Source: Robertmurraya sp.
Lineage (GTDB): Bacteria; Bacillota; Bacilli; Bacillales; Cytobacillaceae
Assembly: GCA_025451895.1 (NCBI GenBank)
Contig: JANWJP010000021.1
Location: 1 to 64,000 of the forward strand
Direction of reading: 5' to 3'
DNA length: 64,000 nucleotides
This document shows, piece after piece, positions 863-1,139 of the stretch. The position numbers and the translations under genes were made by a program. Position 1 is the stretch's first letter. Each line of letters starts with the position of its first letter. The notes beneath the pieces were generated by a model. That model did no database searches. It was not told the origin of the DNA and worked only from the letters and a program-made list of their open reading frames with translations.

Positions 863-910
863 AAGGAGGGACAGAGGCTGTTTTTCATTCAAACTGTTAA
901 ACAGCCTCTG
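863..910 (+). promoter_or_regulatory. Shine-Dalgarno followed by a 12-bp perfect hairpin ahead of swrD
   Basis: A strong ribosome binding site (AAGGAGGG, 863-870) is followed by a perfect inverted repeat: CAGAGGCTGTTT at 872-883 and AAACAGCCTCTG at 899-910, with a 15-nt loop. The swrD GTG is at 918. Read linearly, the SD is 47 nt from the start codon. With the hairpin folded, only 8 unpaired nt (871 and 911-917) separate them, a normal spacing. No other good SD precedes the GTG. That the hairpin acts as a folded spacer is inference. There is no T-tract, so it is unlikely to be an intrinsic terminator. Confidence 0.6.
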
Positions 911-917
911 AAAGATT

Positions 918-1139
918 GTGATAAACCTGACAAGATTAAACGGAAAATCCTTCGTGTTAAATGCACTTTATATTGAAACAATTGAAGCCTTCCCGGATAC
1001 AACCATCACTATTGCAAACGGGAAAAAATATGTTGTGAAGGAAACAGTAGAAGAAGTTGTTAAACAGACGAACGCTTTTTACCGTTCTGTTAATCTCCTC
1101 GGAAAAAATTGGCCGGGAGGACCTGAAAATGAAAAATAA
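918..1139 (+). CDS. swrD: SwrD (FlbD family) flagellar motor power factor
   Basis: This is a 73-residue protein of the FlbD/SwrD (YlzI) family. In B. subtilis SwrD raises flagellar motor torque and is needed for swarming. The N-terminus VINLTRLNGKSFVLNA, read from a GTG start, matches the family start, which fixes the initiation codon despite the distant SD. The position between flgE and fliL is the conserved one. Its 3' end overlaps the fliL start by 11 bases, which suggests translational coupling. Translation may depend on the hairpin at 872-910. Confidence 0.88.
   Translation: MINLTRLNGKSFVLNALYIETIEAFPDTTITIANGKKYVVKETVEEVVKQTNAFYRSVNLLGKNWPGGPENEK

Follow-up and report, generated by a model that had tools for sequence, protein, structure and literature searches.

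A hairpin between a distant Shine-Dalgarno sequence and the start codon of swrD: a probable structured spacer kept across a bacterial order

Introduction

How does a ribosome start on a gene whose only strong Shine-Dalgarno (SD) sequence lies far upstream of the start codon? A long SD-start distance is usually taken as the sign of a mis-annotated start or of a weak gene. The window analysed here, a stretch of 64,000 nucleotides from Robertmurraya sp. (positions 1 to 64,000 of contig JANWJP010000021.1, assembly GCA_025451895.1), raises the question at swrD, a gene that determines motor power (Hall et al., cited in PMC6878767 and PMC9195833). A hairpin stands between the SD and the start of this gene. 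We consider it very probable (about 0.85) that evolution has maintained the hairpin as a structured spacer within a split ribosome binding site (RBS), of the type known from phage T4 genes 25 and 38.

The swrD leader and its predicted fold

All features of the locus lie on the forward strand. The open reading frame at 2-859, which ends in a TAA stop (857-859), is probably the 3’ part of flgE, the hook protein gene, as judged from its context and a conserved C-terminus. It is followed by the sole strong SD of the leader, AAGGAGGG (863-870), with its GGAGG core at 865-869, and, after a single A (A871), by the 5’ arm of the hairpin, CAGAGGCTGTTT (872-883), a loop of 15 nt (884-898) and the 3’ arm, AAACAGCCTCTG (899-910). 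The single-stranded, A/T-rich linker AAAGATT (911-917) then ends at the GTG start (918) of swrD, also called ylzI, a member of the FlbD family that encodes 73 amino acids (918-1139). The identity of this gene rests on the reading frame and on a profile match of its product to the FlbD/SwrD family (Pfam PF06289, E 8e-26, 89.8 bits against a curated cut-off of 24.7). An in-frame TGA at 909-911 means that no earlier in-frame start of swrD is possible, and the nearest SD-like match to the GTG reaches only about -1.2 kcal/mol, leaving the gene with no useful near SD. The GTG lies 47 nt from the end of the 8-nt SD at position 870, 8 nt of which are outside the hairpin; counted from GGAGG instead, the distance is 48 nt, with 9 unpaired nt. 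The positions and counts that the first-pass annotation had given for the SD, the stem and the spacing are thus correct base for base.

The stem formed by 872-883 and 899-910 is a perfect helix of 12 bp, and a local fold recovers the identical stem with 8 nt left outside, bearing out what had been read from the letters. The segment from 840 to 960 folds with -30.6 kcal/mol (z = -3.3), and only one of 200 shuffles was equally stable. The SD of the window can alternatively pair with early codons of swrD and is predicted to be 13% open at 37 °C; such sequestration of the SD is not favoured among the leaders of relatives.

The predicted model of SwrD itself (pLDDT 87) has a confident fold of five strands and one helix, in an order like that of CsrA, and no significant match in the PDB. 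The idea that SwrD is a CsrA-like, RNA-binding autoregulator was rejected: no Foldseek match in the PDB fell below E 0.15, and CsrA was absent among the matches listed. PDB sequence searches with SwrD also returned nothing significant and turned up no solved structure for its family.

Distribution of the split arrangement

Leaders of swrD were sampled from 40 families of the host order, the host’s own family included, from 23 other families of the class, and from named genomes, and the start of each gene was fixed by the conserved N-terminus of the protein. The arrangement of SD, hairpin and start occurs in 38 of the 40 families sampled within the order and, in the rest of the class, in 4 of 23. 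In a set of 177 distinct leaders, the median energies are -10.3 kcal/mol for the best far SD and -1.5 for the best near SD, and just 6 of the 131 far-SD leaders have another possible start codon in frame, 4-14 nt behind the SD. Leaders that have no hairpin (L058, L129 and L174) show an ordinary short SD-start distance or a near SD. A long distance with no fold to bridge it was not clearly seen among the relatives, where only two leaders of one family (L119 and L120, family f22) are ambiguous.

In the relatives of the host the hairpin occupies the same position and is written in different letters. This comparison of the flgE-swrD junction, which had been proposed earlier as a check, shows a hairpin that is kept, with covarying stems, and not an insertion. 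The splitting hairpin is about as old as the order. The first-pass annotation had also offered a different origin, a short palindrome inserted into an ordinary pair of SD and start and tolerated there, an idea that the perfection of the palindrome in the window would suit. A recent event of this kind is at odds with the age of the arrangement and with stem sequences that differ from genus to genus and are unrelated among the 38 families; the palindrome, moreover, occurs once in the 3.2 Mb genome, unlike a repeat of the REP or MITE type. An insertion can therefore practically be discounted.

Outside the order, eight leaders from the class (L147, L150, L155, L159, L160, L165, L178 and L180) have a strong hairpin between flgE and swrD that lies upstream of an ordinary near SD, at about positions -20 to -60 relative to the swrD start. 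Its 5’ arm is often SD-like (GGGGAG), as though the stem concealed a further, upstream SD. A leader of this type may have given rise to the split site, or the reverse, and, given these hairpins, a stem at the flgE-swrD junction may serve some other function or an older one.

Geometry of the leader

The linear distance from SD core to start in the 131 far-SD leaders ranges from 26 to 64 nt (38.5 ± 6.5), while the part of it outside the hairpin is 10.1 ± 2.0 nt, a functional distance when set beside the median GGAGG-start spacing of 8 in ordinary genes of two relatives. The gap between SD and hairpin is 2.2 ± 1.05 nt and that between hairpin and start about 8 (7.9-8.1) ± 1.8 nt; the two gaps are anticorrelated by only -0.12, a value that carries no weight in the argument. 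Almost all of these leaders (98%) fold better than 95% of their own shuffles. Two further leaders failed the initial leader filter and lie outside the 26-64 nt range: in L040, 116 nt between SD and start contain one very large hairpin, and in L032 (G013:C14:1-260), 161 nt contain two consecutive hairpins, and in both 13-14 unpaired nt are left. No flgE end was recognised in the short DNA that precedes the doubled hairpin of L032.

The hairpin could instead belong to flgE, as a 3’ stem-loop that protects or delimits a cleaved flgE mRNA, with its placement at the SD of swrD incidental. Most genomes do have it close behind flgE, and in several other families of the class a stem separates the flgE stop from an ordinary swrD SD. 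The distance from the flgE stop to the hairpin, however, varies from 5 to 249 nt (standard deviation 26), while its spacing from SD and start hardly changes, and the stem stays with swrD when other DNA intervenes: in L057 and L015 inserted DNA separates flgE from swrD and the unit of SD, hairpin and start is intact. The hairpin is anchored to SD and start and not to the end of flgE, and an element of flgE is an unlikely explanation. Within the 330 nt before swrD, the insert of L015 holds a tandem repeat of about 100 nt and that of L057 is rich in palindromes.

A stem rich in G+C behind the gene of the hook protein, which is presumably needed in larger amounts, might also act as an intrinsic terminator, or as an attenuator, and so reduce expression downstream of flgE. 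No T-run stands directly behind the stem in the window, where a terminator scan of the forward strand was empty at this place, and TTTT follows the stem in only 4 of the 131 leaders, so that this role is highly improbable.

Covariation of the stems

The structured spacer that had been proposed from the window alone is found order-wide, with a near-constant folded distance and stems that covary. The 131 leaders contain 78 distinct 7-bp stem bases, with all six standard pair types at every position, and the stems of different genera are unrelated in sequence; compensatory changes are many. In a structure-consistent alignment, 35 leaders with trimmed loops show two-sided changes at all nine pairs and a covariation score of 1.13, against 0.31 for shuffled and at most 0.24 for slid alignments; the percentage of paired positions in this alignment is inflated by selection, since the 35 were picked for long unbroken stems. 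A fold-free test that is less exposed to this selection gave a median complementary run of 10 for a leader’s own arms and of 5 for arms swapped between species.

These data also bear on regulation. The gene sets motor power, and a split site is in principle open to switching, with a protein, a helicase or temperature folding or unfolding the spacer, and a dependence on temperature or on a binding factor had been suggested for the window. Between 20 and 70 °C the stem has a predicted probability of more than 0.95, and it includes neither the SD nor the start, unlike an RNA thermometer. A factor that binds by sequence would find no conserved stem or loop (loops range from 2 to 48 nt) and, in particular, no site of the CsrA type, as GGA is absent from the loop of the window and present in only 10 of the 131 loops. 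Neither suggestion is supported, and a regulated switch is very unlikely.

Specificity to swrD

The window and 453 kb of loci were scanned for a far SD, a hairpin of at least 8 bp and a start with no near SD, and the scan returned swrD plus a few weak matches, mostly inside genes. The same scan of 800 kb from two relatives gave one swrD and six other matches, whose hairpins all lie within reading frames, several of them shortly behind an ordinary SD-ATG. In the approximately 1.3 Mb of sampled DNA there was no convincing split site at any gene except swrD. A covariance model of the element (R1), run on 41 genomes, also placed mainly swrD among its best matches; the other matches inspected were due to chance or were hairpins before an ordinary SD. 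This model is a weak tool that misses the window’s own long-loop copy. Its top match in relatives that is not swrD, L195 (G005:C1:198847-198890), is a strong hairpin before a gene (MFPVIKGASYVLVNSPDM...) with an ordinary SD.

Proposed mechanism and significance

The 30S subunit would pair with the distal SD at 865-869 while the hairpin remained folded and was taken in as a side branch, and the GTG at 918, by then separated from the SD by about 9 nt of unpaired strand, would enter the P site. Unfolded, the 48 nt should exceed the range over which an SD can direct initiation, so that folding would restore a working distance. Translation of swrD would then need the hairpin, which probably has a constitutive role rather than a signal-sensing one. 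The gain to the cell, at a guess, may be that swrD has its own SD-dependent initiation in place of linear re-initiation by ribosomes arriving from flgE. Tentatively, translation of swrD might be routed through a folded spacer across the order and uncoupled from the ribosomes of the abundant hook gene, in which case helicases or growth conditions could tune torque; we regard this extension as rather doubtful. If it were true, this would be, to our knowledge, the first order-wide ribosome site in cellular genes to be conserved in geometry only.

In at least 42 families (38 and 4) one geometry has persisted while the sequences changed extensively. With more than 100 different designs, the leaders form a natural series on which the tolerance of the 30S subunit for structure between SD and start could be measured, and they invite the question of why one motility gene needs a split site. 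They are also a caution to gene finders and RBS calculators, as a far SD can be real. A literature search found no description of the swrD leader; the main study of SwrD (PMC5738730) lay outside that search, so novelty is unproven.

Comparison with known systems

Rfam 15 families describe conserved structured leaders, as that of swrD is, and none of them matches it, no family reaching its gathering score over positions 600-1300 of the window. In Escherichia coli thrS, which also has a split RBS, the hairpin precedes the SD and is an operator for its synthetase, whereas the hairpin of swrD separates SD from start and lacks a conserved recognition sequence. The ribosome is reported to accommodate the thrS hairpin unmelted (Sacerdot et al., as discussed in PMC3936740).

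The closest likeness is to T4 genes 25 and 38, in which a hairpin cuts SD-start distances of 27 and 22 nt to 11 and 5 nt (Nivinskas 1999; Malys and Nivinskas 2009; PMC3014915), an arrangement proven there by mutation and probing (PMC3014915). In both systems a hairpin brings a distant SD to a working distance. The T4 version is conserved among close phages, whereas that of swrD, known here from sequence, belongs to a cellular flagellar operon, spans spacings of 26-161 nt with stems of mostly 8-14 bp, and keeps its geometry across an order without conservation of sequence. By this analogy, and if its effect on translation is the one proposed, the swrD leader would be a deeply conserved cellular counterpart of the phage T4 device.
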